A stretch of 64,000 nucleotides of DNA from Maricaulis parjimensis (GTDB lineage: Bacteria; Pseudomonadota; Alphaproteobacteria; Caulobacterales; Maricaulaceae). The translations under genes were made by a program, and so were the position numbers. Within the stretch, counting starts at the first letter, position 1. Every line of letters begins with the position of its first letter. Below the pieces are notes generated by a model. That model was not told where the DNA came from. It made no database searches and worked only from the letters and a program-made list of their open reading frames with translations. Positions 33,991 through 46,860 of this stretch are shown here, piece by piece. Location of the stretch: positions 189,094 to 253,093 of the forward strand of contig NZ_JADOTT010000001.1 of the NCBI RefSeq assembly GCF_016817355.1, in the 5' to 3' direction.

Positions 33991-34077
33991 GCCCAGGTGG
34001 CGGAATTGGTAGACGCGCTAGCTTCAGGTGCTAGTGCCCGTATGGGCGTGGAAGTTCGAGTCTTCTCCTGGGCACCA
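33991..34077 (+). tRNA. tRNA-Leu (anticodon CAG)
   Basis: An 87-base class II tRNA. The acceptor stem GCCCAGG pairs with CCTGGGC, and the 3' CCA is encoded. The anticodon arm is CTAGC-TTCAGGT-GCTAG with CAG in the loop. A variable arm (TGCCCGTATGGGCG) and T arm with GTTCGAGTC follow. Its 3' end is the insertion site of the island; the last 17 bases are part of the 19-base att core. Confidence 0.97.
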
Positions 34078-34079
34078 TT
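34061..34079. other. attL core (19 bp)
   Basis: TCTTCTCCTGGGCACCATT covers the T-arm end, acceptor stem and CCA of tRNA-Leu plus two bases. It is identical to 46842-46860. Confidence 0.9.
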
Positions 34080-34133
34080 TCTCGGCTCTAACGCCCTGAA
34101 ATCCCTTTCAATGCATTGCGGTAGCCGGATTTT

Positions 34134-34155
34134 TTGGTACATGGCTTGGTACATG
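34134..34155. repeat. Two direct TTGGTACATG repeats inside attL
   Basis: TTGGTACATG occurs at 34134-34143 and 34146-34155, 12 bases apart, just before the integrase gene. The same decamer occurs as an inverted pair near attR. These are candidate integrase arm-binding or excisionase sites; they may also affect integrase transcription. Confidence 0.6.
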
Positions 34156-34165
34156 AGGACCAGCC

Positions 34166-35584
34166 GTGAGGATAGATGTGCCCGGCCTGCAGCTACGGAA
34201 CAGCACCTACCATTTTCGCCGCCCCGTACCCCCTGATCTCGTCGAGATTGTCGGTAAGCGCGAGTGGAAACGCTCCCTGCGGTTAAAGCCCGGACAGGAG
34301 TTGAAGGCCCATGCGCAGGCCGACCGCCTTTGGAAGCAGACCGAAGAGCAAATTGTTGCGCTAAGACGCGAGCTTGCAAACTCTGAGGACCCCGTAAGGC
34401 TTGCAAAGAAAGCCGCACAGTGGGCAAACGATTTCCAGCTTCTTGATGGGCAAGCCGGAGCCACACGCGAGGCAGCTTGGATCAATGGTGAGAAAGTTGA
34501 ACTCGACAGCCAACGCGACCTTCATATTGTTCACATTATTGAAGCCGCCGGGCGGGAGTTTGGCTGGGATGAGCAGGGGCACCCGAAGCGGTTGAGCCCC
34601 GAGCAAGAGGCGCGGCTTGCCGTACTCATCGAAGGCAAGCCGATTGACCCTCCCATGACGGTCTCGCAGGCACGGGACATCTATCTAGCCGACAAAGAGC
34701 GAGGCCCAGCAGACAAGGCCACGGCACAGGGGACGCAGCAATTTATCGACATGGTTGGAGATATGGAACTCTCCCAAATCTCGCGGCCCATGGTCATAAA
34801 ATGGCTTCGCGAACTTCGCTCCGAAAGAGGGCAGGCCCCAGCGACGGTTCGTAGAAGGCTCACCACAATGCGCGCAATCTACAACCACATGCGTAAGAAC
34901 TACGAACTGAAATCAGACAATCCGTTCGCCAGTCAGGACCTGCCTGCCAATGTCGACGACGACCGAAAACGTGTGCCATTCCACACCAAGCATTTCGAGC
35001 TTATCGAAGCCTATCTGATCAAGCCCGACACGGATCCGCATGTGCGCCGTATCATCACCCTATTGAAGCACACTGGGTGCAGGCCGATGGAAATCGGGGG
35101 CCTCAGCAAATCAGAAGTCTACCTAGACCTTGAAATCCCCGCGATCCAAGTCCGGTGGACCGCAGACAGGCGGCTGAAAGCGAAATCCGCGAAGCGCCTG
35201 GTTCCCCTCATTGGACCGGCACTGATCGCTGCCCGTGAAGCGGTCGCGGCTGCGGAGGGCGACACCCTGTTCCCATCGAAGTTCCTAAAGACCGACCGTC
35301 TGTCGCAGACACTGAACGGCGCAATCAGAGATGCAGGCGTTCCGAAATCTCCCAACAGACTGATCGCCTATTCGTTCCGACACTCCATGAAGGAAGCCTT
35401 GCGGCTAGCCGCAGTCCTTGAAGAAACTCAAGACGCCTTGATGGGGCATGCCAAGGCTGAGGTTGCGGCGAGGTACGGGGCGGACAGGAAGCATATGCAC
35501 ATCCTGAAAGATGCGCTGCAGCGTGCCACGCCACACTTGGGCGATATCGTTGAAACGCAGTATCTGCCCGGCGAGCTTCCCTGA
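34166..35584 (+). CDS. Tyrosine site-specific integrase with DUF6538 N-terminal domain
   Basis: The 472-residue protein begins with the DUF6538 pattern (YHFRRPVPPDLVEIVGKREW, where the protein adapts to arm-type DNA). A SAM-like core-binding domain follows (ISRPMVIKWLRELRSERGQA). The C-terminal catalytic domain has Arg in HTGCRPMEIGGL, the Arg-His of YSFRHSMKEA, His of LMGHAKAEV and the nucleophile Tyr in AARYGADR. GTG start at 34166, ten bases after an AGGACC box. It sits 89 bases from the tRNA-Leu gene that serves as its attachment site. Confidence 0.93.
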   Translation: MRIDVPGLQLRNSTYHFRRPVPPDLVEIVGKREWKRSLRLKPGQELKAHAQADRLWKQTEEQIVALRRELANSEDPVRLAKKAAQWANDFQLLDGQAGATREAAWINGEKVELDSQRDLHIVHIIEAAGREFGWDEQGHPKRLSPEQEARLAVLIEGKPIDPPMTVSQARDIYLADKERGPADKATAQGTQQFIDMVGDMELSQISRPMVIKWLRELRSERGQAPATVRRRLTTMRAIYNHMRKNYELKSDNPFASQDLPANVDDDRKRVPFHTKHFELIEAYLIKPDTDPHVRRIITLLKHTGCRPMEIGGLSKSEVYLDLEIPAIQVRWTADRRLKAKSAKRLVPLIGPALIAAREAVAAAEGDTLFPSKFLKTDRLSQTLNGAIRDAGVPKSPNRLIAYSFRHSMKEALRLAAVLEETQDALMGHAKAEVAARYGADRKHMHILKDALQRATPHLGDIVETQYLPGELP

Positions 35585-35796
35585 GCGCCGGAATTTATGA
35601 CGAAAATTTCCGAAGCGGCTTAGGATATGCCGAGCGTCTAATTTCCCCCCATGCCCCCCAGCGGATCGCCCTGGGCGGCATTAAGCATCCCCCTAGCAGT
35701 CCCCAGGGTTGAAGCTATAGGGGTATATCCTTTGGGCTGTCCTTAAGATGATCCTTTGGATGGCCTCAGAGTTTCCCTCAGAGCTCAGCTCCCACC

Positions 35797-35831
35797 CCCA
35801 CCCTTCCAATCCTGTTCCTCAGAAGGGTGGG
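35797..35831. terminator. Possible terminator hairpin downstream of the membrane-protein gene
   Basis: CCCACCCTT and AAGGGTGGG form a perfect nine-base-pair stem with a 17-base loop. It lies between the integrase and the end of the minus-strand gene at 35844. The T tract is weak (TTTAGG on the plus strand), so its strength is uncertain. Confidence 0.4.
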
Positions 35832-35843
35832 TTTAGGAGAGGT

Positions 35844-36242
35844 TCAGTCTCCGCTCGGCGCTGGGGTCAGGTACCCGTTCACTACCGAGAGGATTTGTTC
35901 GCACTGATAGGTGTTCGCTACTGCGAGGTGCATGCACTGTTCGCGTATGCCTCTGAGCATCCGCCTCTCCTGAACACCGTGATTGATCGCACCAAGCTCA
36001 CCAATCAACAGCACGCCGAATAGGACAATCAACGGCCCTTTTGCCGCTTCTGTCAGCGCCTGGAACTTCCACAGGTAATAGGCGCAGCAGCCTCCGATGA
36101 AGAGCGGTAGGAGCTCCACAACGTTGTACTGGTCAGGGCCGAACGCTGAACCTACTAGAGCGGCAATCCCGAGGGCCGTGATGAGTTGAAAACGCCGTTT
36201 ACTGCGGTCGAGCTGAGGGGCGTCATCTTCAAGTTTGGCCAT
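35844..36242 (-). CDS. Small membrane protein of the island, hypothetical
   Basis: The start at 36242 (MAKLEDDAPQLDRSKRRF) follows a GGGAGGGG box; the frame is open further upstream without support. The 132-residue product has three hydrophobic helices: LITALGIAALVGSAFG, VVELLPLFIGGCCAYYLW and GPLIVLFGVLLIGELGAI. A short soluble tail with cysteines follows (REQCMHL, YQCEQIL). No family was recognised. Small multi-pass proteins in defence islands can be membrane effectors, but nothing here proves that. Confidence 0.6.
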   Translation of the reverse strand: MAKLEDDAPQLDRSKRRFQLITALGIAALVGSAFGPDQYNVVELLPLFIGGCCAYYLWKFQALTEAAKGPLIVLFGVLLIGELGAINHGVQERRMLRGIREQCMHLAVANTYQCEQILSVVNGYLTPAPSGD

Positions 36243-36370
36243 GCGCCCCTCCCGCGTCACCCATGAGGTTTCCGGTGCAGGTGAGGGTGATGCCCAATGG
36301 GGCGGGAGGAGGCGCACCCGCCCCCCATTCAGAGATATAAAAAGTCATAGCTAGCCCTATGCACGAGTTA

Positions 36371-36527
36371 TCGGCGTCCCGCCGCTGGTGGCGGGCCGAC
36401 AGTCACATCACGGGCTAGCGTGTGTGCTCGCTTATTCCCCAAGCACAGATGATCAGTCCGTGCCGCGAACGGGTATTGTATTCGGCGAGCGACCCGCCGT
36501 AGCGGTCGCCCGTGAAGTGACTGTGCC
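36371..36527. ncRNA. Candidate structured RNA or palindromic DNA site in the island
   Basis: This 157-base stretch has unusual folding potential. A 17-base outer stem, with one mismatch, joins 36399-36415 (ACAGTCACATCACGGGC) to 36508-36524 (GCCCGTGAAGTGACTGT). Inside are smaller hairpins: TGTGCT/AGCACA (36423-36447) and GCGACCCGC/GCGGTCGC (36489-36509). Just outside lies CCCGCC-GCTGGT-GGCGGG (36378-36395). GCTAGCCC at 36350 could pair with GGGCTAGC at 36412 as an alternative fold. No open frame covers it well. It may be a non-coding RNA, a long leader of the gene at 36685, or an origin-like DNA site. The strand is unresolved. Confidence 0.35.
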
Positions 36528-36684
36528 TTAAGAATCTATTGCCCGGAGTCATCCGTCAATGCGCCCGAGCGGGCGGCCTACGCGCCAAACAAGAATGCGC
36601 CCTTTGACTTGCACCCAGGAATGCGGTCAGGCTGCAAGGAACAGCCGCACAGCCGCTGACAAACTCCACTGGAGCCCCTTTTCC

Positions 36685-37344
36685 ATGACGCCTGCAGAGT
36701 GCCTTGAACGTATTCGCGCATACACTCAGCAACACCCGGAGCTACGAGAAGCGCATCACTTCCTCTTCGACCTTCCCATCACGGAAAAGCGCGATCCGGT
36801 AGATGTGCTTGTCATGGGAATTAACCCCGGGGAAAGCCCCAGTGATTTTGACATTTGCGACCCTGTTGCTGAGGAGTCCAGTGCGTACGACTTTCACGAG
36901 AGAGATGGAGCGGGTCGGGACCACATCCCCTGGCACAGGCATGCGAGAACCATTCTACGCGGCACCGTAGCGGTCCAAACAGAGGCATTCTTTTGGAGCT
37001 CGGAGAAGTCAGGCGCTAAGTTTCGCGCCCGCTTCGGCACGCCCATAGAACGCTCACCGCACCTCAAGTTCTGCACCGAAATGAATACTGCATTGATAGC
37101 GCACCATCAGCCGAAGGTGGTGGTTGCCGTCGGGCTCGCGATGGAATGCTGGCTGCCTGGTCGCTTCGGACTCCGCTATGTCGATACGCGCTTCACAAGC
37201 GACGGCGATAGTCGCGTAATAGAATGCTTCACTGACGGAACACGCCCTTGGTTGCTTACAAAGCATTGGACCGGGGCCTGGCTGTCAGAAGGAGAGAAGA
37301 AACTCATCCAGCAGGAAATAAGAGCCCACCTAGGCAACGGTTGA
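36685..37344 (+). CDS. Uracil-DNA glycosylase superfamily-like protein
   Basis: The 219-residue protein contains VDVLVMGINPGESP, like motif A (G-x-x-P-G) of Mug/UDG-type glycosylases. A C-terminal strand NTALIAHHQPKVVVAVGLAM resembles the UDG 'P-x-x-V-V-x-x-G-x-x-A' element. WLLTKHWTGAW is where the motif B His would lie. Overall similarity is weak, so catalysis is unproven. The ATG has a GGAG box ten bases upstream. The last 15 bases overlap the end of the convergent resolvase gene. It follows the structured region at 36371-36527. Confidence 0.5.
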   Translation: MTPAECLERIRAYTQQHPELREAHHFLFDLPITEKRDPVDVLVMGINPGESPSDFDICDPVAEESSAYDFHERDGAGRDHIPWHRHARTILRGTVAVQTEAFFWSSEKSGAKFRARFGTPIERSPHLKFCTEMNTALIAHHQPKVVVAVGLAMECWLPGRFGLRYVDTRFTSDGDSRVIECFTDGTRPWLLTKHWTGAWLSEGEKKLIQQEIRAHLGNG

Positions 37345-37890
37345 GCCAGTCCGCTTGATCCGCTGGACGCTTGATCGACTGATATCGAGCCGCTCAGCAA
37401 CCGCCACCTCAGTCAGCCCCTCAGACAGCAACCGCTGGACCTCCTCAGCTTTCCTTCGTGCCGTCGGTGCGCGGCCCTTGTACTTGCCAGCGGCCTTGGC
37501 CTTAGCAATACCCTCTCGCTGCCTTTCCAGCATAATTTCCCGCTCAAACTCGGCAACGGAGCCGAGGATGCCGAGCATGAGCTTTCCTGTGGCTGAGCCG
37601 GTGTCTAGGTCCATGGCCAGAATGCGTAGAGCGGCGCCCTTGGCCTTGACGGCTTCCACGGTCTCCATGAGGTCTCGGATTGATCGGGCCAGTCGGTCCA
37701 ACTTCGTGACCATCAGAACGTCGCCATCCCGGAGATAGTCCAAGGCGTCTCTCAGGGCCGCTCTCGTGGCTACTGACGAGGTTTCTTCGCTGAAGAGCCT
37801 CTCAGCCCCAGCGGCACGCAAATCGCGCTCCTGGGCCTCTAATCCGGCTTTTTGATCAGTTGTTGAGGTTCGGGCGTATCCGATAATCAT
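37330..37890 (-). CDS. Serine recombinase (resolvase/invertase family)
   Basis: The protein starts MIIGYARTSTTDQ, with the catalytic Ser in the Y-x-R-x-S motif. Further signatures are VLMVTKLDRLARSIRDLME (R-x-x-R) and GSVAEFEREIMLERQREGIAKA (E-x-x-x-x-x-x-x-R helix). The C-terminal helix-turn-helix is AERLDISRSSVQRIKR. The start at 37890 has GGAG seven bases upstream. At about 186 residues it is a full small resolvase. It could resolve multimers or invert a segment in the island, or be a relic of another element. Confidence 0.92.
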   Translation of the reverse strand: MIIGYARTSTTDQKAGLEAQERDLRAAGAERLFSEETSSVATRAALRDALDYLRDGDVLMVTKLDRLARSIRDLMETVEAVKAKGAALRILAMDLDTGSATGKLMLGILGSVAEFEREIMLERQREGIAKAKAAGKYKGRAPTARRKAEEVQRLLSEGLTEVAVAERLDISRSSVQRIKRTGSTVA

Positions 37891-38049
37891 TTTCGACTCC
37901 ACAGCATCACATGGCTCTATGAATCTATGGAGCCACTGGCTTCATAAGTCAAATTTGATGTGTGTGACGCCTCGCTGGGAGTCGCTGGGGAGGCATCACT
38001 GGGGCAAGGCCGTGTGGCTCAGCCCCCGCCCCACAGGCACTGGAAGCGA

Positions 38050-38739
38050 CTAAAACTTCTTGAATCTGCACATCCAACCTTCATCTCCATACCTGCCTGA
38101 CATTCGAGTGACGCCGAGCGTTTTGCCGTAGAGCCGCATGAGCGCAGCTTGCCTTCGCTCGAATGCGGGGCGCATCGGGGAGCCGTCAGGTAGATTTCCC
38201 TCATATTCCAGGGGGTACGCCTTCAACACGATGAGGGAGAAGTCCGGAAACACCGCCGCAATCAGACTTTCCAAGATCTCACCTGACGCCCCTGCGACTT
38301 CAGGAACCGGACTCAACCAAACTCGGTTCAGCTCGATAATGTCGCCGTAGTCTCCAACTTCCTCACTGACAGAATCAAATTCATGAGCCAAAGCGCAGGA
38401 GAGGCGATGGGTTTCGCTGCTCTCTCGGTCCATTACGTCCAGAAACTCTTCATTTGTCATGAAAGTGGGAATTGTAAATCGGCTCAGGTTCACTCCGCCG
38501 ACAGACCGACCATCATGCCGAACCCAAGCCCTGCAGACCTGTCGACGCAGATGATAGGTGGTCTCATCCAGAGGCACGTCTACTTCACCATCCACAAAGT
38601 AGGGTGCGGACACGGCGTACTCCACGGTGATATCACCACTGCCGATCCAGATAGTCGGCAGACCTGACGCCTCTCGATATGATTTTTCGTTGAACTCGGC
38701 CGGAAGCTCTGTCTGTCGGTGCAATCGCAGCTTTGTCAT
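38050..38739 (-). CDS. GNAT-like protein, hypothetical
   Basis: The 229-residue protein has an N-terminal extension. The second half is reminiscent of acetyltransferases: ELNRVWLSPVPEVAGASGEILESLIAAV in place of the R/Q-x-x-G-x-G/A motif, and ERRQAALMRLYGKTLGVTRM like the final 'A-x-x-x-Y-x-K-x-G-F' segment. The acetyl-CoA loop is degenerate. No signal peptide. It is alone on the minus strand, divergent from hsdM. Related proteins occur as stand-alone cargo of integrative elements, but I cannot assign a role. Confidence 0.6.
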   Translation of the reverse strand: MTKLRLHRQTELPAEFNEKSYREASGLPTIWIGSGDITVEYAVSAPYFVDGEVDVPLDETTYHLRRQVCRAWVRHDGRSVGGVNLSRFTIPTFMTNEEFLDVMDRESSETHRLSCALAHEFDSVSEEVGDYGDIIELNRVWLSPVPEVAGASGEILESLIAAVFPDFSLIVLKAYPLEYEGNLPDGSPMRPAFERRQAALMRLYGKTLGVTRMSGRYGDEGWMCRFKKF

Positions 38740-38982
38740 CGTGCCTCCCCAAGCCTCGGCGCCAAAAACCCAGGCGCTTCAATACAAACAGTAGCGACAG
38801 CCACCCGCCCCTATCTGTTTTCACCTACGACAGGTCTTGTCACCCCCGCGTGACCAAGCTCACGCCCTCGGATATTCCTTCTGGGTATCAAACAAGAATC
38901 AAGAGGTTGAGCCGACACGCCTTGCCCAAAGCGAGCGCATGCGGTTCACTCAACCTCAACGGGGAGAGGGGCGAGATCGGCG

Positions 38983-41001
38983 ATGACGCCAACACCAACC
39001 AATGTGCAAGGCTTGGCGAACTTTGCCTGGTCTATCGCGGAGCTTCTTCGAGGGGACTTCAAGCAGTCCGAATACGGCAAGGTGGTGCTGCCTTTCGTGG
39101 TGATGCGCCGTCTCGATGCCATCCTGGAGCCGACCAAGGAGGCTGTCCTCTCGGCGGCGGCGAACTTGCCCGAGGACATTGATGACGAGACGCGGAGGAT
39201 GATCCTGCTGGGTGCCGTGGGAAGCGACATCAAGGTCTTCAACACCTCGCGCTTCACCTTCGCCACGCTGAAGCAGCAGGACCCCGGCCAGCTCCACGCC
39301 AACCTGATCGATTACATCCGGGGCTTCCCGGCGGATGTGCAGGATGTCTTCCTTGAGAAGTTCCTGATCACCGACCAGCTCAAGCGCCTCAATGATGCCG
39401 GGCTGCTCTGGAAGGTGTTCGAGCGCTTCACCGAGATCGACCTCCACCCCTCGAAGGTACCGAACCTGGAGATGGGCTATCTCTTCGAGGAACTCATCCG
39501 CCGCTTCTCGGAGATTTCCAACGAGACTGCTGGTGAACATTTCACTCCGCGCGAGGTCATCCGTCTGATCGTCGATCTCCTGGTCGAACCGGACAAGGAC
39601 AAGCTCGCGGGTCTGGGTGTCATCCGTCAGGTCTATGACCCGGCCTGTGGCACCGGGGGTATGCTGGCCCTCACCGAGGAAGCCTTGAAGGAGATCAACG
39701 CGGACATGCGCGTGGAGCTCTTCGGGCAGGAAATCAATGGCGAGTCCTTCGCCATCTGCCGGTCGGACATGCTGGTCACCGGCCACGACCCGGACCAGAT
39801 TGCCTATGGCAACACGCTCACCCAGGACGCCCATCCCGCCCGCAAATTCCACTACATGATCTCCAACCCGCCCTATGGGGTGGACTGGAAGAAGTACAAG
39901 GAACCCATCGAGGCCGAAGCCAAGGGTATGGGTCATGATGGCCGCTTCGGAGCAGGAACCCCGCGTGTCTCCGATGGCCAGCTCCTCTTCCTCCAGCACA
40001 TGATCTCTAAGATGCGCCAGGATGAGGCTGGGTCGCGGATCGGCATCGTCATGAATGGCTCACCGCTCTTCACAGGCGGGGCGGGCTCTGGCGAGAGTGA
40101 AATCCGGCGTTGGATGTTGGAGAATGACTGGGTCGAAGCGATCATCGCCCTGCCCACCGATCTCTTCTACAACACCGGCATCCAGACCTATGTCTGGCTT
40201 CTCTCCAACCGCAAGTCGGTGGAACGCCGGGGCAAGGTCCAGCTGATCGACGCGTCCGGCGAATACTTTTGGAAATCCATGCGAAAATCGCTGGGATCGA
40301 AACGCCGGGAAATCCCTGATGAGGCCCGCGACGAGATCGTACGCAATTACACCCTCTTTGAGGCCGCAGACGACAAGATCTCCAAGGTCTTCCCGCGCGA
40401 AGCATTCGGCTATCGGGAAATCCGGGTGGAGCGACCGCTCCAGCTCGCCTTCGACGTGACCGAGGAGAAGATCGAGGCGCTGAAAGCCGAGAAGGCCATA
40501 CAGAAGTTGAAGGATGACGAGGTCGAAGCCTTGCTGGCTGCGCTGGAAAGCCTGCCCAGGGATCATCGCTGGATGTCGCGGGATGGCTTCGAGGCCGACT
40601 TGCAGAAGAGCCTCAAGGCCGCTGGCGTGAAGATCGGATTGCCGGTGAAGAAGGTTGTCCTCTCTGTCTTCGGTGAGCGCGATGAAGACGCTAAAGTCTG
40701 CCGTGACAAGAAAGGCCAGCCGGAAGCGGACAGCGATCTGAGGGACACCGAACTCGTGCCTCTGGACGAGTCTTGGGAAGCCTATGTCGAACGCGAGGTG
40801 AAGCCCTTCGTGCCGGATGCCTGGGTGGACGAGAGCCACATGGATGCCAGCGACGGAGAGGTGGGCCGGGTCGGCTACGAGATCAACTTCAACCGGTATT
40901 TCTACGAGTATGTCCCGCCGAGACCGCTGGAGGAGATCGATGCGGAACTGAAGGCGCTGGAAGCGGAAATCGCTGGGCTTCTGAAGGAGGTCGCGGCGTG
41001 A
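38983..41001 (+). CDS. hsdM: Type I restriction-modification system methyltransferase subunit
   Basis: The 672-residue protein has the HsdM N-terminal domain (LANFAWSIAELLRGDFKQSEYG, VVMRRLDAI). The methyltransferase core follows: GEHFTPREVIRLIVDLL, the SAM-binding YDPACGTGGMLAL and the catalytic MISNPPYGVDW (N-P-P-Y). It is longer than typical HsdM (about 500 aa) because of a C-terminal extension with coiled-coil character. It methylates adenine in the sequence read by HsdS and is needed for cleavage. GGGGAGAGGGG lies upstream. Its stop overlaps the hsdS GTG start. Confidence 0.96.
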   Translation: MTPTPTNVQGLANFAWSIAELLRGDFKQSEYGKVVLPFVVMRRLDAILEPTKEAVLSAAANLPEDIDDETRRMILLGAVGSDIKVFNTSRFTFATLKQQDPGQLHANLIDYIRGFPADVQDVFLEKFLITDQLKRLNDAGLLWKVFERFTEIDLHPSKVPNLEMGYLFEELIRRFSEISNETAGEHFTPREVIRLIVDLLVEPDKDKLAGLGVIRQVYDPACGTGGMLALTEEALKEINADMRVELFGQEINGESFAICRSDMLVTGHDPDQIAYGNTLTQDAHPARKFHYMISNPPYGVDWKKYKEPIEAEAKGMGHDGRFGAGTPRVSDGQLLFLQHMISKMRQDEAGSRIGIVMNGSPLFTGGAGSGESEIRRWMLENDWVEAIIALPTDLFYNTGIQTYVWLLSNRKSVERRGKVQLIDASGEYFWKSMRKSLGSKRREIPDEARDEIVRNYTLFEAADDKISKVFPREAFGYREIRVERPLQLAFDVTEEKIEALKAEKAIQKLKDDEVEALLAALESLPRDHRWMSRDGFEADLQKSLKAAGVKIGLPVKKVVLSVFGERDEDAKVCRDKKGQPEADSDLRDTELVPLDESWEAYVEREVKPFVPDAWVDESHMDASDGEVGRVGYEINFNRYFYEYVPPRPLEEIDAELKALEAEIAGLLKEVAA

Positions 41002-42299
41002 GCGCAGCACTGGAGGCCGCCCGCCTAGATCGCCTACCGGCGAATTGGCCACGGGTTCGTGTGAAGCACGTTGCCAAAGTCGTTGGTGGCGGCACGCCGT
41101 CAAAAGAGGTGAACGAGTACTGGTCCGACGGAAACATCCCCTGGGTTTCTCCCAAGGACATGAAGCGTCGGGTGATTGATACCACGGAAGACTGCATCAC
41201 CGAGGAAGCGGTCAGGGAAAGTGCGACCAACATGGTTCCAGCGGGCGTTCCGTTGATCGTCACACGATCAGGTATTTTGCGCCACACCCTTCCGATCGCG
41301 ATGTCAGGACGTGACGTCGCCATCAATCAGGACATCAAGGCACTCCTGCTACACGATCGACGGCTTCTACCAGATTACTTTGTCTACTGGGTGACCGGAC
41401 AATCATCCGATTTGCTTCTGGAGTGGAGGCAATTCGGCGCGACCGTCGAGAGCATTGATGTTGATCGTATGAGAAACGGCCAACTGGGCTTGCCCGACCT
41501 CGACACCCAGAAGGCCATCGCGGACTTCCTCGACAAGGAAACCGCCCGGATCGACCAGCTGATCGAGAAGAAGCAGCGCCTGGTGGAGCTGTTGGGGGAG
41601 CGGGAAGCTCGCGAAATCGGTCGTCTGATCCAAGGTGCTTCGTCAGGCACAACGCAGCTCAAACGAGTCGCAAGGATCATCGATTGTAAACACGTCACCC
41701 CAACTTACGTGGACACCGGGGCACCCTGCATCAGCACAACTGAAGTGAAGCCATTTTCGATCTCATTTTCTGACAAGCGCTTGGTTGCACCAGATGATTA
41801 CGCAATCATGCGGTCAGGAGGTAGAGCGCCGGTGCCAGATGACATTATCTACAGCCGCAATGCGTCTGTTGGTTCGGCTGCCCGTGTCGGCGACAATCGA
41901 GAATTCTGTGTCGGCCAAGACCTATGCATCATTCGTCCAGAGGGTGTTGATTCTGAGTTGCTCGAACTCGTCCTCAACAGTGAGTTCGTTCTCACGCAGC
42001 TGGATGAAGTGCTGGTTGGCGCGACGCTTAAGCGAGTGAACATCGACACGATCCGACGCTTTTCTATCCCGCTGGTCGCGCCTGATCGGCAGCGAGGCCT
42101 CGCCCGTGACCTCCAAGCCTCACGAGGACAAATGGGTCGCTTGGCTGCGACGGTTAGGGTGTCCATGGACCGCCTCAAGGAATACCGCTCGGCCCTCATC
42201 ACAGCGGCCGTCACAGGCCAGATCGACGTGACCTGCTGGGGCCAGACCGGCGAAGGCGACAAGCGCCTAGATCAGATCCAGGAGGAGATGGCGGGATGA
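40998..42299 (+). CDS. hsdS: Type I restriction specificity subunit
   Basis: The GTG start overlaps the hsdM stop (GTGA). The 433-residue product has two target recognition domains: WPRVRVKHVAKVVGGGTPSK starts the first, and TQLKRVARIIDCKHVTPTY the second. They are separated by the conserved helix LPDLDTQKAIADFLDKETAR...LIEKKQRLVELL, and a similar helix ends the protein (LAATVRVSMDRLKEYRSALI). TRD sequence determines the bipartite target and cannot be read off here. Overlaps the next gene by four bases (ATGA). Confidence 0.95.
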   Translation: MSAALEAARLDRLPANWPRVRVKHVAKVVGGGTPSKEVNEYWSDGNIPWVSPKDMKRRVIDTTEDCITEEAVRESATNMVPAGVPLIVTRSGILRHTLPIAMSGRDVAINQDIKALLLHDRRLLPDYFVYWVTGQSSDLLLEWRQFGATVESIDVDRMRNGQLGLPDLDTQKAIADFLDKETARIDQLIEKKQRLVELLGEREAREIGRLIQGASSGTTQLKRVARIIDCKHVTPTYVDTGAPCISTTEVKPFSISFSDKRLVAPDDYAIMRSGGRAPVPDDIIYSRNASVGSAARVGDNREFCVGQDLCIIRPEGVDSELLELVLNSEFVLTQLDEVLVGATLKRVNIDTIRRFSIPLVAPDRQRGLARDLQASRGQMGRLAATVRVSMDRLKEYRSALITAAVTGQIDVTCWGQTGEGDKRLDQIQEEMAG

Positions 42300-43333
42300 C
42301 GAATGTCTGGTTGATACGCCTCGGCAAGTACGGCGAAAGCGAAGCGCGAGCGTTGCAGGATGGTCAGCTTGCGACCGGTTGGGAGTTGTCGCGGGAGCTG
42401 GAATCTTGCGCCTCGAAGGAAGACATCCTCACGTATCTGGAACCGCACTACCCGGGCCAGAAGCAAGGGACACTCCAGAACTGGGCGGTTCAACTCAATC
42501 AACTGAAGCACCAAGTGAAGCAGGGCGACCTTGTCGTCGTACCTTTGAAGACCACCAAGGACATCGCCATCGGGAAGGTGACCAGCGACTTCCTCATGGT
42601 CGATGGCAAGCATCCTGGCCGAGCCGTCACATGGTTGGTGACCGATCTTCCACGGCAGGCTGTGAAGCAGGATCTGCTCTTCTCGCTCGGTGCCTCGCAG
42701 ACTGTCTGCCGTGTCTCTCGAAACAACGCCGCTGATCGGTTCGCCGAATTGGCTAGGTCCCGCCGCGACCCTGGTCCGTCGCTCGCTCGACATGTGCCGA
42801 TCCAAGGCAAGCCCTCAGAGGACGAAGGAGGCGATGATGCAGACGTTCAGCTCGATCTCGCGGAGATCGCCCGCCAGCAGATCGAGGAACACATCTCAGC
42901 CAACTTCGCGGGTCATGAATTCACTCACTTGATCGCAGCAATCCTGGAAGCCCAGGGGTATCGGACAGAAGTCTCTTTGCCTGGTGCTGACCGGGGTATC
43001 GATATCGTCGCAGGCAAGGGAGCCTTGGGCTTCGACTCGCCGCGTCTCGTCGTCCAAGTGAAGTCAGGCGACATCGTCGGAGATCAGCCGACGCTTCAGA
43101 GCTTGATCGGGAGTGTCCAGGATGCCCATGCCGACCAAGGCTTGCTCGTGTGCTGGTCCGGCTTCAAGTCCACAGTCCGCAGCCGCATCAATGAACTCTA
43201 CTTCCGCATCCGCCTCTGGGGCCGCGAGGAAGTTCTCGATGAACTCTTCGATGTCTATGACGACCTCTCGGACGAGATGAAAGCCAAGCTGAGGCTCCAG
43301 CGCATGTGGGCTGTCGTGCCGGAGGAGGGGTGA
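42296..43333 (+). CDS. Mrr-like restriction endonuclease inside the type I operon
   Basis: The 345-residue protein has an N-terminal domain that looks DNA- or modified-base-binding (MTNVWLIRLGKYGESEARAL...GDLVVVPLKTTKDIAIGKV), as in Mrr-type restriction proteins. The C-terminal PD-(D/E)xK core reads GADRGIDIVAGKGALGF...RLVVQVKSGDIVGDQP, giving D...Q-x-K as in Mrr_cat. It overlaps hsdS by four bases and ends in the start of the next gene. It may cut modified foreign DNA that escapes the type I enzyme. Confidence 0.9.
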   Translation: MTNVWLIRLGKYGESEARALQDGQLATGWELSRELESCASKEDILTYLEPHYPGQKQGTLQNWAVQLNQLKHQVKQGDLVVVPLKTTKDIAIGKVTSDFLMVDGKHPGRAVTWLVTDLPRQAVKQDLLFSLGASQTVCRVSRNNAADRFAELARSRRDPGPSLARHVPIQGKPSEDEGGDDADVQLDLAEIARQQIEEHISANFAGHEFTHLIAAILEAQGYRTEVSLPGADRGIDIVAGKGALGFDSPRLVVQVKSGDIVGDQPTLQSLIGSVQDAHADQGLLVCWSGFKSTVRSRINELYFRIRLWGREEVLDELFDVYDDLSDEMKAKLRLQRMWAVVPEEG

Positions 43334-43737
43334 TGGCGCTGGACAATCTTCAGAAAAGCGAGCTGGTCATCTCCAAAATTCTTGAGGCGCTAGTGGAGCA
43401 AGGCATTCAATGCCGAACCCACCTTCCGTTCGCAGAACTCGGCCTGTCGGATGAGTTGAAGCCGTTTTTTGAGGGCTGCTGCCTGTGGCTCTACGATGAA
43501 GGTATCGTTCGTTGCACGAACCCTCACCAGCTAGGCACCAATGGTAGCATGGTGAACCCGTCAATCACCGCATATGGGTTCCAGTTACTTGGTCAGAAGT
43601 TCTTGGCGGGCGACAAGGAGGAGGCGCTCGGTACCGCAGTCAAAGAGGTTGCGAGTGGCCAGAAGAACTACGCGGCAATCGGTGACTTCTTCGGTGGCAT
43701 CCTTGGTGGCTTCACCAAATCACTCGGGAGCGGATGA
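43333..43737 (+). CDS. Unknown 134-residue protein inside the type I restriction operon
   Basis: The ATG overlaps the stop of the Mrr-like gene by one base (TGATG) and follows a perfect GGAGGAGGGG box, so it is clearly translated. The sequence (ALDNLQKSELVISKILEAL, FFEGCCLWLYDEGIVRCTN) suggests a small helical or winged-helix fold. The C terminus is glycine-rich and amphipathic (AIGDFFGGILGGFTKSLGSG), unusual in a soluble protein. hsdR begins three bases after its stop. I recognise no family. Position and tight spacing argue for a role with the restriction enzymes. Confidence 0.8.
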   Translation: MALDNLQKSELVISKILEALVEQGIQCRTHLPFAELGLSDELKPFFEGCCLWLYDEGIVRCTNPHQLGTNGSMVNPSITAYGFQLLGQKFLAGDKEEALGTAVKEVASGQKNYAAIGDFFGGILGGFTKSLGSG

Positions 43738-43740
43738 TCC

Positions 43741-46719
43741 ATGGCAATCACACAGTCCGCGCTACACCGCGAAATCGCCGTCCAGGAACACTTCGTCCAG
43801 CAGCTGGTAGCCCACCAAGGCTATCGCGAACGCCAGCCTGACGACCACGACAAGCCGCTCGCGCTCGATGTCGCACTGGTCTGCGAGTTCCTGAAGACTT
43901 CCCAGCCGGATGCCTGGGCGACACTCGCTTCGAACTATCCTGGTTCCGAGCAGCGCACGGTGATCGACAAGCTCACCAAGGATCTGAGGACCTTCGGGAC
44001 GCTGGAAGTCCTGCGCAAGGGCATCAAGCTGGTGCCGAACATCAAGTTCCAGCTCTGCGCCTTCAAGCCTGCCTCGTCGATCAATCCTGATCTGGTACGG
44101 CTCTACGAAGCGAACATCCTCTCGGTGATCCAGGAAGTCGAATACTCGACCAAGAACGGCAACCGGATCGACACCGTCCTCTATGTGAACGGCATCCCGG
44201 TCGCGACCTTCGAGTTCAAGAACACGCTCACAGGGTCGAACTACAAGACTGCAGAGAAGCAGTACAAGAAGGACCGCTCGCCCGCTGGTGAGCCTCTACT
44301 GACGTTCAAGCGCGGCGCTCTCGTCCACTTCGCGCTGGACCAGGACTATGTCTCGATGGCCACGCGGCTGGCCAATGGCAGCACCTATTTCCTGCCGTTC
44401 AACCGGGGCCGCGAGGGAGGCGGTGGGAACCCGGATGTGAAACTGGACGACGGAACCGAGGAGTTCCGTATCGCCTATCTCTACCGGGACCTGCCGGACG
44501 GCAAAGCGATCTTCGCGCGGGAGGTCCTGCTCGACATCATCGGACGCTTCATCCACCTCAATGAAGACGGTGTGATGATCTTCCCGCGCTTCCAGCAGCT
44601 CGACGCCGTGCGAAAGCTGATGGCCCATGCTCGCGAACACGGATGCGGGCAGAACTATCTCATCCAGCACTCGGCCGGCTCAGGGAAATCGAACACCATC
44701 GGCTGGACGGCCCACCAGGCGATCAAGCTCCATACCGAGGACGACAAGTCGATCTTCGATACGGCCATCATCCTGACCGACCGCCGGGTTCTCGACAGGC
44801 AGCTCCAGAAAACGCTCACCGACCTGGAGCAGACGCCGGGCGTAGTCCGGGCTATCGATGGAACGTCTCGTCAACTCAAGGAAGCCTTAGAGGCGGGCGC
44901 GAAGATCATCGTGTCGACGATCCAGAAGTTCGGCACCGAGCATCTCACCGCGATCTCTGCCCAGGCGCACAAGACGTTCGCCGTGATCATGGACGAGGCG
45001 CACAGTTCGCAGTCCGGTAAGGCAGCGGAGGCTGTCTCCAAGGCTCTGACAGCGCAGGAAGCCGAGGAGGAAGGCCGTTCTGCGGAGGACATCATCCTCG
45101 CCTACCAGAACGAACGAGGGCCGCAGGAGAACATCTCCTACTTCGCTTTCACGGCGACACCCCGGAACGTCACGCTGGAGCGCTTCGGACATCCTGGCGA
45201 GGACGGAAAGCCCCATCCCTTCCACTTGTATTCGATGCGTCAGGCCATCGAGGAAGGTTTCATCCTGGATGTGCTGAAGAACTACTCGACCTACCAGGCC
45301 TATTACGAGCTGGAGAAGACCATCGAGGACGATCCGCGCTTCGAAGGTTCGAAGGCCCAGCGCAAGGTCGCCAAGTTCGCGCATCTCCACGACGAGGCCA
45401 TCGATCAGAAGGTCGAGGTGATCGTCGAACACTTCCGCCGCCATGTGATGCATGAGCTGGGCGGTGAAGCGAAGGCGATGGTGGTCACAGCCAGCCGGGA
45501 AGCGGCCCTGAAATACTATCGGGGGATGGAACGCTATCTGGCTTCGAAGAACTATGACGATCTGGGTGTTCTCGTGGCGTTTTCCGGAGCGCTCCCGGAT
45601 GGAACCGGGGGCGAGATCACTGAACCGGAACTCAACGGGTTCGCCGAGACGGAACTGCCCAAGAAGTTCGACAAGGGCGACTACCACCTCCTCATCGTGG
45701 CCGAGAAATACCAGACCGGTTTCGACCAGCCCAAGCTCTGCGCCATGTATGTCGACCGCAAGCTGGCGGGCCTCCAGTCTGTCCAGACACTCTCGCGTCT
45801 CAACCGGACCAAGCGGGGCAAGGACAGGACCTTCATCCTCGACTTCCAGAACTCCATCGAGGACATCCAGGAGGCCTTCAAGCCTTTCTTCGAAGCGACC
45901 ACGCTGGAAGAACGCTCTGACCCCAACCAGATCTACGAGCTGGAACAGAAAATCATCAGTTACGGCTTCATAGACCGGCCGGAGATCGACAGGTTTGCGG
46001 CGATCTACTTCAAACCGGAAGGGGTGACCACAGCAGACCGGCCTTCTCTGGAAGCCATCGTTCGCAATGCGGTGGATCGCTGGCAGGCTGAGGACGCAGA
46101 GGGGCGTCGCGAGGAATTCCGTCAACTCTTGAAGAGCTATCAACGCTTCTATGTCTTCCTGGCCCAAATCATGACCCTAGGGGACACCTGGCTGGAGAAA
46201 CTTTACGTCTACGCCTCCTGGTTGGACCGAAAGCTGCCCGACAGAGAGCAGCCTGAAGACCCTGACATCACGGACGACATGCTCCGCCTCGCAGCTTTCA
46301 AGGTGGAACACAAGAAAGATGGGTCCGCGTCCCTTCACGAAGGGGACACGACAGCCCTGAAGCCTATCAGCGAGTTCGCGGCCAAGCCTTTCACTGAGAA
46401 GGAAGCCAAGACTCTCCAGGAGATCATCGACGCCTTCAACGAACGGCACGGGACAAGCTTCTCCGAGGAAGACACACGCCGCTTTGTCGACGTAACGGAG
46501 CAGCTGCTCGACGACCGCAACATGCGAGCGATGTTGGAAGACAACCCGGTTGACGTCGTGCAAGGCGCGTTTCGGCAACGGGCAACCGCTGGAGTGGCGG
46601 CGGCCTTTCAGCGTGACGGCGAGATGCAAAGCATCTTTTTCTCGGACAAGGAGATCCGAGATAGGGTCCTCGACTGGATGCTAAAGGCCGCACTGGACAG
46701 GGTGAGACGCGCATCTTGA
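43741..46719 (+). CDS. hsdR: Type I restriction endonuclease translocase subunit
   Basis: The 992-residue protein has the N-terminal nuclease site (RIDTVLYVNGIPVATFEFKN, the D...E-x-K motif). The helicase core shows Walker A (SAGSGKSNTIGW), the DEAH box (VIMDEAHSSQ) and FAFTATPRNVT (motif III). Later motifs such as VAEKYQTGFDQPKL and VQTLSRLNRTKRGKDRTF (motif VI) follow. It translocates and cuts unmodified DNA with HsdM and HsdS. The ATG has GGGAGCGG upstream. It is the last gene of the operon and ends about 120 bases before attR. Confidence 0.96.
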   Translation: MAITQSALHREIAVQEHFVQQLVAHQGYRERQPDDHDKPLALDVALVCEFLKTSQPDAWATLASNYPGSEQRTVIDKLTKDLRTFGTLEVLRKGIKLVPNIKFQLCAFKPASSINPDLVRLYEANILSVIQEVEYSTKNGNRIDTVLYVNGIPVATFEFKNTLTGSNYKTAEKQYKKDRSPAGEPLLTFKRGALVHFALDQDYVSMATRLANGSTYFLPFNRGREGGGGNPDVKLDDGTEEFRIAYLYRDLPDGKAIFAREVLLDIIGRFIHLNEDGVMIFPRFQQLDAVRKLMAHAREHGCGQNYLIQHSAGSGKSNTIGWTAHQAIKLHTEDDKSIFDTAIILTDRRVLDRQLQKTLTDLEQTPGVVRAIDGTSRQLKEALEAGAKIIVSTIQKFGTEHLTAISAQAHKTFAVIMDEAHSSQSGKAAEAVSKALTAQEAEEEGRSAEDIILAYQNERGPQENISYFAFTATPRNVTLERFGHPGEDGKPHPFHLYSMRQAIEEGFILDVLKNYSTYQAYYELEKTIEDDPRFEGSKAQRKVAKFAHLHDEAIDQKVEVIVEHFRRHVMHELGGEAKAMVVTASREAALKYYRGMERYLASKNYDDLGVLVAFSGALPDGTGGEITEPELNGFAETELPKKFDKGDYHLLIVAEKYQTGFDQPKLCAMYVDRKLAGLQSVQTLSRLNRTKRGKDRTFILDFQNSIEDIQEAFKPFFEATTLEERSDPNQIYELEQKIISYGFIDRPEIDRFAAIYFKPEGVTTADRPSLEAIVRNAVDRWQAEDAEGRREEFRQLLKSYQRFYVFLAQIMTLGDTWLEKLYVYASWLDRKLPDREQPEDPDITDDMLRLAAFKVEHKKDGSASLHEGDTTALKPISEFAAKPFTEKEAKTLQEIIDAFNERHGTSFSEEDTRRFVDVTEQLLDDRNMRAMLEDNPVDVVQGAFRQRATAGVAAAFQRDGEMQSIFFSDKEIRDRVLDWMLKAALDRVRRAS

Positions 46720-46739
46720 CCCCAGCGCCGCACCACGAT

Positions 46740-46775
46740 TTGGTACATGGAGTTCAACAACGCGCCATGTACCAA
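46740..46775. repeat. Inverted TTGGTACATGG repeats inside attR
   Basis: TTGGTACATGG (46740-46750) and CCATGTACCAA (46765-46775) are perfect inverted copies. The decamer is the same as the two direct copies at 34134-34155. Further on, ACGCATTGAA occurs twice near 46794 and 46810. Confidence 0.6.
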
Positions 46776-46841
46776 TCGACCACGCCAAGCATAACGCATT
46801 GAAATTACAACGCATTGAAGAGCTCAAAAATTCTCCCGCGC

Positions 46842-46860
46842 TCTTCTCCTGGGCACCATT
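46842..46860. other. attR core (19 bp)
   Basis: Identical to 34061-34079. It marks the right end of the island. Confidence 0.9.

Follow-up and report, generated by a model that had tools for sequence, protein, structure and literature searches.

Within a stretch of 64,000 nucleotides from Maricaulis parjimensis (NCBI RefSeq assembly GCF_016817355.1, contig NZ_JADOTT010000001.1, positions 189,094 to 253,093), hereafter called the window and numbered from its first letter, two further genes lie between hsdS and hsdR of a type I restriction operon, one encoding an Mrr-like nuclease and the other a small protein of 134 residues. This raises the question of whether the two genes form a composite defence system with the type I genes, as a preliminary description of this DNA had suggested, or whether each of them is an independent passenger.

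The restriction operon and its two additional genes

The operon consists of five genes.
38983-41001, + strand: hsdM, adenine methyltransferase subunit (Pfam N6_Mtase 1.2e-57, HsdM_N 2.4e-20; PADLOC MTase_I 1e-270)
40998-42299, + strand: hsdS, specificity subunit, GTG start, overlapping hsdM by 4 nt (two Methylase_S stretches; PADLOC Specificity_I 5e-108)
42296-43333, + strand: Mrr-like nuclease of the PDC-S02 family, 345 aa (PADLOC PDC-S02 4.9e-126; Pfam Mrr_cat 8.6e-20)
43333-43737, + strand: winged-helix-like protein (predicted model) of 134 aa with a conserved C-terminal Gly-rich motif, from a 12-member family
43741-46719, + strand: hsdR, translocase/nuclease subunit (Pfam SWI2_SNF2 2.5e-24, HSDR_N 4.5e-16)

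All five are read from the + strand in the order hsdM-hsdS-mrr-ORF134-hsdR, and the junctions (-4, -4, -1 and +3 nt) are as tight as originally reported, with overlaps of 4, 4 and 1 nt followed by a gap of 3 nt. Read from the sequence, the order and the coupling of the genes are clear. The type I gene set is complete by Pfam and PADLOC, with hsdM, an hsdS with two target-recognition regions and an hsdR with both a nuclease and a SWI2/SNF2 motor, and the motifs DPACGTGG, NPPY, D144...E158-x-K160 and SAGSGKS can be read in the type I proteins. By its genes, the operon is a type I restriction-modification system.

An island at tRNA-Leu

The operon lies within an island whose landmarks are as follows.
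33991-34077, + strand: tRNA-Leu(cag), the insertion site of the island (ARAGORN)
34061-34077, + strand: left 17-bp direct repeat, the 3' end of tRNA-Leu, repeated exactly at 46842-46858
34166-35584, + strand: tyrosine recombinase (integrase) of the island (Pfam Phage_integrase 5.8e-08, DUF6538 5.9e-13)
37330-37902, - strand: resolvase on the island
46842-46858, + strand: right 17-bp direct repeat and island end, matching the tRNA-Leu 3' end exactly

The island (33991-46858) measures 12.8 kb, with the recombinase gene directly after the tRNA gene and the right repeat just past hsdR. Its G+C content is 57-60% compared with mostly 62-67% outside. In one congener (G049) a distance of about 2.6 kb, holding two other genes, separates the same tRNA from the right flank, and in another (G088) a related operon is carried by a different island, at tRNA-Leu(gag), that is bounded by perfect 52-bp end repeats (G088:C43:10113-28069; L121, L122, L022). 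The end repeats, the integrase, the lower G+C and the differing sites in these two congeners together identify the whole restriction operon as cargo of the island. The island also encodes two proteins without any Pfam match, at 36559-37344 (261 aa, + strand) and 38050-38739 (229 aa, - strand).

The Mrr-like nuclease

The match of the Mrr-like protein to the PDC-S02 family extends over its full length, residues 1-343 aligning to positions 1-344 of the 346 in the PADLOC model (E 4.9e-126). An AlphaFold2 model built from 16 sequences (pLDDT 81.8, pTM 0.48) divides it into two domains, the mutual placement of which is unsure because of the low pTM.
42296-42766, + strand: N-terminal EVE/YTH-like (PUA superfamily) reader domain, residues 1-157 (AlphaFold2 model, Z scores)
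42857-43291, + strand: C-terminal PD-(D/E)xK domain, residues 188-332 (Z 12.3 to AspBHI, 11.9 to MspJI)
43001-43063, + strand: catalytic motif D236...Q254-x-K256 (alignment of 17 sequences)

The predicted fold of the first domain matches YTH m6A-reader domains at Z 8.6-9.8 (YTHDC2 9.8), the EVE-like proteins MJECL36 (9.4) and PH1033 (9.2) and also VcaM4I (8.9); this domain is seen by predicted fold only, there being no Pfam EVE/YTH match. AspBHI and MspJI, which the second domain is predicted to resemble, are both modification-dependent nucleases. The D...Q-x-K signature noted at the outset is present, D236 and K256 being invariant in 17/17 sequences and position 254 being Q, or E in two. Mrr_N, the winged-helix domain, is absent at E<=1 (Pfam), and the protein is not an Mrr of the E. 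coli type. Neither slot gene of the window contains GmrSD_N or GmrSD_C (DUF262/DUF1524; Pfam), which sets them apart from the two-gene GmrSD/TgvAB systems, and a sequence search of the PDB matched neither protein.

The joining of an EVE/YTH-type reader fold to an Mrr nuclease with D...QxK points most probably to a type IV, modification-dependent nuclease, which would complement the type I system. Earlier work predicted that fusions of EVE with PD-(D/E)xK domains act as type IV enzymes and reported EVE domains in the vicinity of type I systems (PMC7641849). A PUA-superfamily domain need not be a sensor, as is the case for HhiV4I (PMC11037411). EVE and YTH folds score alike, so that the fold does not fix the choice of target base. 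Modified cytosine may be the likelier target, since HsdM is by family an N6-adenine methylase and a reader of 6mA in this HsdS context would harm the host. PDC families were found through ‘guilt-by-embedding’ and are described as mostly without experimental validation (PMC12988326).

An exchangeable slot between hsdS and hsdR

A profile of four HsdR proteins was used to collect related operons, the best 80 of 99 matches being taken; as only these were used, and as the profile included operons first found via Mrr, the fractions that follow are indicative only. Both hsdS and hsdR are visible in 73 of these best 80 of 99, and the gap between them is filled in 54 and empty (<200 nt) in 19. Insertions at the hsdM-hsdS junction are seen in 11/66 operons, compared with 54/73 at hsdS-hsdR. 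A PDC-S02 Mrr occupies the slot in 8/73 operons of the scan (best 80 of 99), to which are added the window and two operons found via Mrr, and GmrSD-type enzymes occupy it in eight operons of the same best 80 of 99. Other contents include DarT (alone or paired with a macro-domain partner), a TIR protein, a KwaB-like protein, AbiJ/Abi_C, a DUF4011 helicase (PDC-S37), many small unknown proteins and a protein that is not defence-like and matches CBS weakly. Short overlaps with the neighbouring genes are common to most occupants. The check proposed earlier, a search for the order hsdM-hsdS-mrr-small protein-hsdR, comes out differently for its two genes, Mrr recurring in 8/73 slots and the small gene being present in only 1/73 (best 80 of 99 matches).

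The left edge of the slot can be placed by comparison with congeners.
42159-42299, + strand: conserved 3' end of hsdS, 94% nucleotide identity to two congeners, with no further blastn match until hsdR

Across three Maricaulis operons hsdM and hsdR can be aligned (81-89% nucleotide identity); the alignment ends at this conserved 3' end and restarts near the hsdR start, and no slot DNA is shared. The slots contain, respectively, the Mrr and small gene of the window, genes for 128 aa, 181 aa, another Mrr and 1644 aa (L022/L029), and a GmrSD-type gene (L028). Pairs of operons with HsdR proteins 95-96% identical (L097/L103 and L058/L064) likewise have no common slot DNA. The presence of Mrr, mapped onto the HsdR tree, requires no fewer than 9 changes for 11 Mrr-bearing operons. 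The absence of shared slot DNA at near-identical HsdR and these repeated changes argue, at the level of sequence comparison, that the slot turns over much faster than its hsd frame.

Several other recurrent genes were observed in these operons. A 13-member family of proteins of about 130 aa is found right after hsdS (L022:7878-8264 and the slots of L039, L047, L049, L052, L054, L076, L077, L080, L082, L085, L091 and L093); some members are fused to an HNH_2 nuclease, and those that stand alone match nothing in Pfam or PADLOC. In L004 (6176-7242), L033, L071 and L097 the slot Mrr is followed by one or two more small genes, one of which weakly matches a HEPN-type PADLOC model (2e-4). A pair of genes for about 57 aa and 300 aa is inserted repeatedly at the hsdM-hsdS junction (L037, L049, L084, L097).

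The 134-residue protein

The small protein was first described as unknown, and Pfam, PADLOC and further profile searches gave no family above cut-off. It is nonetheless a conserved coding gene, with relatives at 54% protein identity and codon-position differences of 0.38/0.27/0.72, or about 0.4/0.3/0.6-0.7 per site when two relatives are aligned. First searches of genome contigs, plasmids, phages, viral contigs, the order and the class returned no relatives; these came to light first in the HsdR-anchored scan and after that in a family-wide search around one of its operons, L045, which found the protein in 12/395 genomes. A single match came from outside the class (G1213, E 1.9e-8); its contig is short, and the protein itself gives a phrog_2266 match at 1.6e-21.

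The predicted fold is winged-helix-like over residues 1-105 (pLDDT 78.7), with wHTH matches at Z 5-7 (maximum 7.0); since Z does not exceed 7.0, the fold is to be taken as a lead and not as proof. It is followed by a conserved, poorly modelled C-terminal tail, NYAxIGDFxGGxLGxFTKS. Foldseek against the PDB and BFVD gave no match at E<=0.001. Profile matches below the usual cut-offs were obtained to YjcQ (PF09639; 2/12 members, best E 0.014) and to phrog_2266 (best 0.0014), and the YjcQ structure 2hgc superimposes on the model with Z 6.0 and an rmsd of 2.5 over 74 residues. Judged by the model, this looks like a YjcQ-like winged-helix protein, and our best guess is that it is DNA-binding or regulatory.

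The two nearest relatives (L045 and L059) lie directly after hsdS or its remnant and before hsdR, with no PDC-S02 Mrr between; downstream of its hsdR, L045 carries another kind of Mrr, one that has Mrr_N. The remaining relatives with readable context are in Rhodobacteraceae, within a 2-oxoglutarate dehydrogenase operon of the order sucA-sucB-small-MAPEG-like-lpdA, these gene names being our own reading of the sequences. The copies in suc operons (L126 and L138-L145; for example L138:4816-5226 and L139:7923-8321) include nine full-length genes, another divided between two contigs and one remnant. One genome, G781, has both an hsd copy and a suc copy.

All three hsd-linked small genes end 0-3 nt ahead of hsdR, which counts against the independence of the passengers and points to a possible tie to HsdR. 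The protein could then be a regulator of HsdR or an immunity factor, in the spirit of RptR, with Mrr inserted between hsdS and the small gene; the position of the gene in L045 and L059 and the winged-helix-like fold are in keeping with this. The explanation is unlikely, however, given that the small gene is missing from L028 and L022, with HsdR proteins 84-87% identical to that of the window, that it is found in only 1/73 operons with both ends of the slot visible (best 80 of 99) and that no hsdR accompanies the family members in suc operons. A broader version, in which the family is a winged-helix accessory acting on or through HsdR with a second role in the sucA-sucB-lpdA operon of Rhodobacteraceae, is given slim odds; if true, members of a single small protein family would serve a restriction enzyme in one setting and a central metabolic operon in another.

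It is also improbable that Mrr and the 134-residue protein are a two-component nuclease like TgvAB, whose activity would require both proteins or the Hsd complex. Such a composite would fit the one-base overlap of the two genes, the abutment of the second on hsdR and the precedent of TgvAB itself, in which two mutually required genes lie inside a type I operon (PMC11411939). Yet short overlaps are the rule for slot occupants, Mrr is the sole slot gene in L023, L030 and L053, and L045, L059 and the suc operons have the small protein without a PDC-S02 Mrr. For the same reasons a role as partner of Mrr was rejected, and the term ‘small partner’ used in the preliminary description is not sustained, each gene occurring without the other and most other relatives of the small protein being in suc operons.

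Distribution of the Mrr gene

Relatives of the Mrr-like protein are present in 11/398 genomes of the order: three in the hsdS-hsdR slot, one beside another type I system, three beside type IIG methylases and four solitary or as fragments. The nearest of these (G044 and G215, 60% identity) are outside hsd operons. The gene prefers restriction-modification neighbourhoods and yet is not bound to hsd. Scattering away from hsd genes in most genomes had been named as an observation that would speak against a composite, and it is seen in part, with 3/11 Mrr relatives in the slot and 4/11 solitary or fragmentary.

This distribution bears on the possibility that slot genes are carried for mobility alone, with no functional link to type I restriction. 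Rapid turnover of the slot, occupants that are not defence-like such as the protein with the weak CBS match, and the Mrr gene of congener G088, interrupted by one in-frame TAG, speak for neutral hitch-hiking. Many occupants nevertheless come from defence families (GmrSD, DarT, TIR, Abi, KwaB) and Mrr relatives adjoin restriction-modification genes of several types in 7/11 cases in the order, and we consider this explanation a poor one. A guard arrangement, in which the Hsd complex silences the extra nuclease until a phage block of the type I enzyme releases it, as with PrrC (PMC3874165), is highly improbable, as Mrr relatives also lie beside type IIG methylases or alone, so that they do not generally bind the Hsd complex, and the predicted domains are a reader and a DNase without an ATPase.

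A model for the locus

The reading we favour, with a probability of roughly 0.7, is that of a type I operon on a tRNA-Leu island, with an exchangeable slot between hsdS and hsdR that carries two independent passengers, a modification-dependent PDC-S02 nuclease and a small winged-helix-like protein. The in-frame TAG in the Mrr gene of G088 counts against this reading. The hsdS-hsdR junction would take up exchangeable defence cargo. When DNA bearing a modified base enters, the EVE/YTH-type reader would most likely recognise that base and the fused Mrr PD-(D/E)xK domain would cut nearby, ignoring the host HsdM mark, which from its family is presumably adenine methylation. HsdMSR would in this way restrict unmodified DNA and the PDC-S02 nuclease those phages whose modified DNA escapes HsdR. 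The small protein, probably DNA-binding or regulatory, would be needed by neither nuclease.

What remains of the composite defence system first proposed is an accessory nuclease that recurs in the slot (8/73 operons, best 80 of 99), and its description as modification-dependent or accessory agrees with the predicted fold, its activity being a prediction from the model; a fixed composite of Mrr and small protein is not upheld, since the genes separate and the slot contents turn over. The locus provides a clear, counted case of type I operons as docking sites, in which the gap before hsdR varies while hsdM and hsdR stay. It also yields a concrete prediction for PDC-S02, an abundant and reportedly unvalidated candidate, namely that the enzyme may cut modified phage DNA and spare host DNA methylated by HsdM.

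Comparison with known systems

One close parallel is TgvAB, within the type I operon of V. cholerae VPI-2, for which complementarity towards modified and unmodified DNA has been proposed (PMC11411939). There too modification-dependent restriction genes lie between type I genes, although TgvAB is GmrSD-like and needs both proteins whereas the window has a single EVE/YTH-Mrr nuclease; the congener L028 has a GmrSD-type gene in exactly the hsdS-hsdR slot. In EPEC, DarTG2 lies between hsdS and hsdR of a type I operon with RptR, at a site termed a potential recombination hotspot (PMC12255303). The position of the cargo is the same, but the cargo is a toxin-antitoxin system and the small regulator stands first in the island instead of preceding hsdR. 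PrrC in EcoprrI (PMC3874165) is likewise an additional effector housed within a type I operon, but it is a tRNase silenced by the Hsd complex and there is no sign of such silencing in the window.

At the level of the proteins, the window nuclease does not differ from PADLOC PDC-S02 (PMC12988326), and the domains of that family are read here as an EVE/YTH reader and Mrr. It shares with the EVE-PD-(D/E)xK and EVE-HNH type IV enzymes (PMC7641849; VcaM4I, PMC7897488) the joining of a PUA-superfamily reader to a nuclease, VcaM4I having an HNH nuclease in place of Mrr and the specificity of the window protein being predicted only. The predicted winged-helix-like fold of the 134-residue protein resembles that of YjcQ (PF09639, 2hgc), and members of its family give weak profile matches, below the usual cut-offs, to YjcQ and to phrog_2266; the conserved C-terminal Gly-rich tail sets the family apart. 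Extra effectors within type I operons are already established through PrrC, TgvAB and DarTG2, and the locus described here adds another case; what was not expected is a small protein family represented in restriction operons as well as in suc operons.
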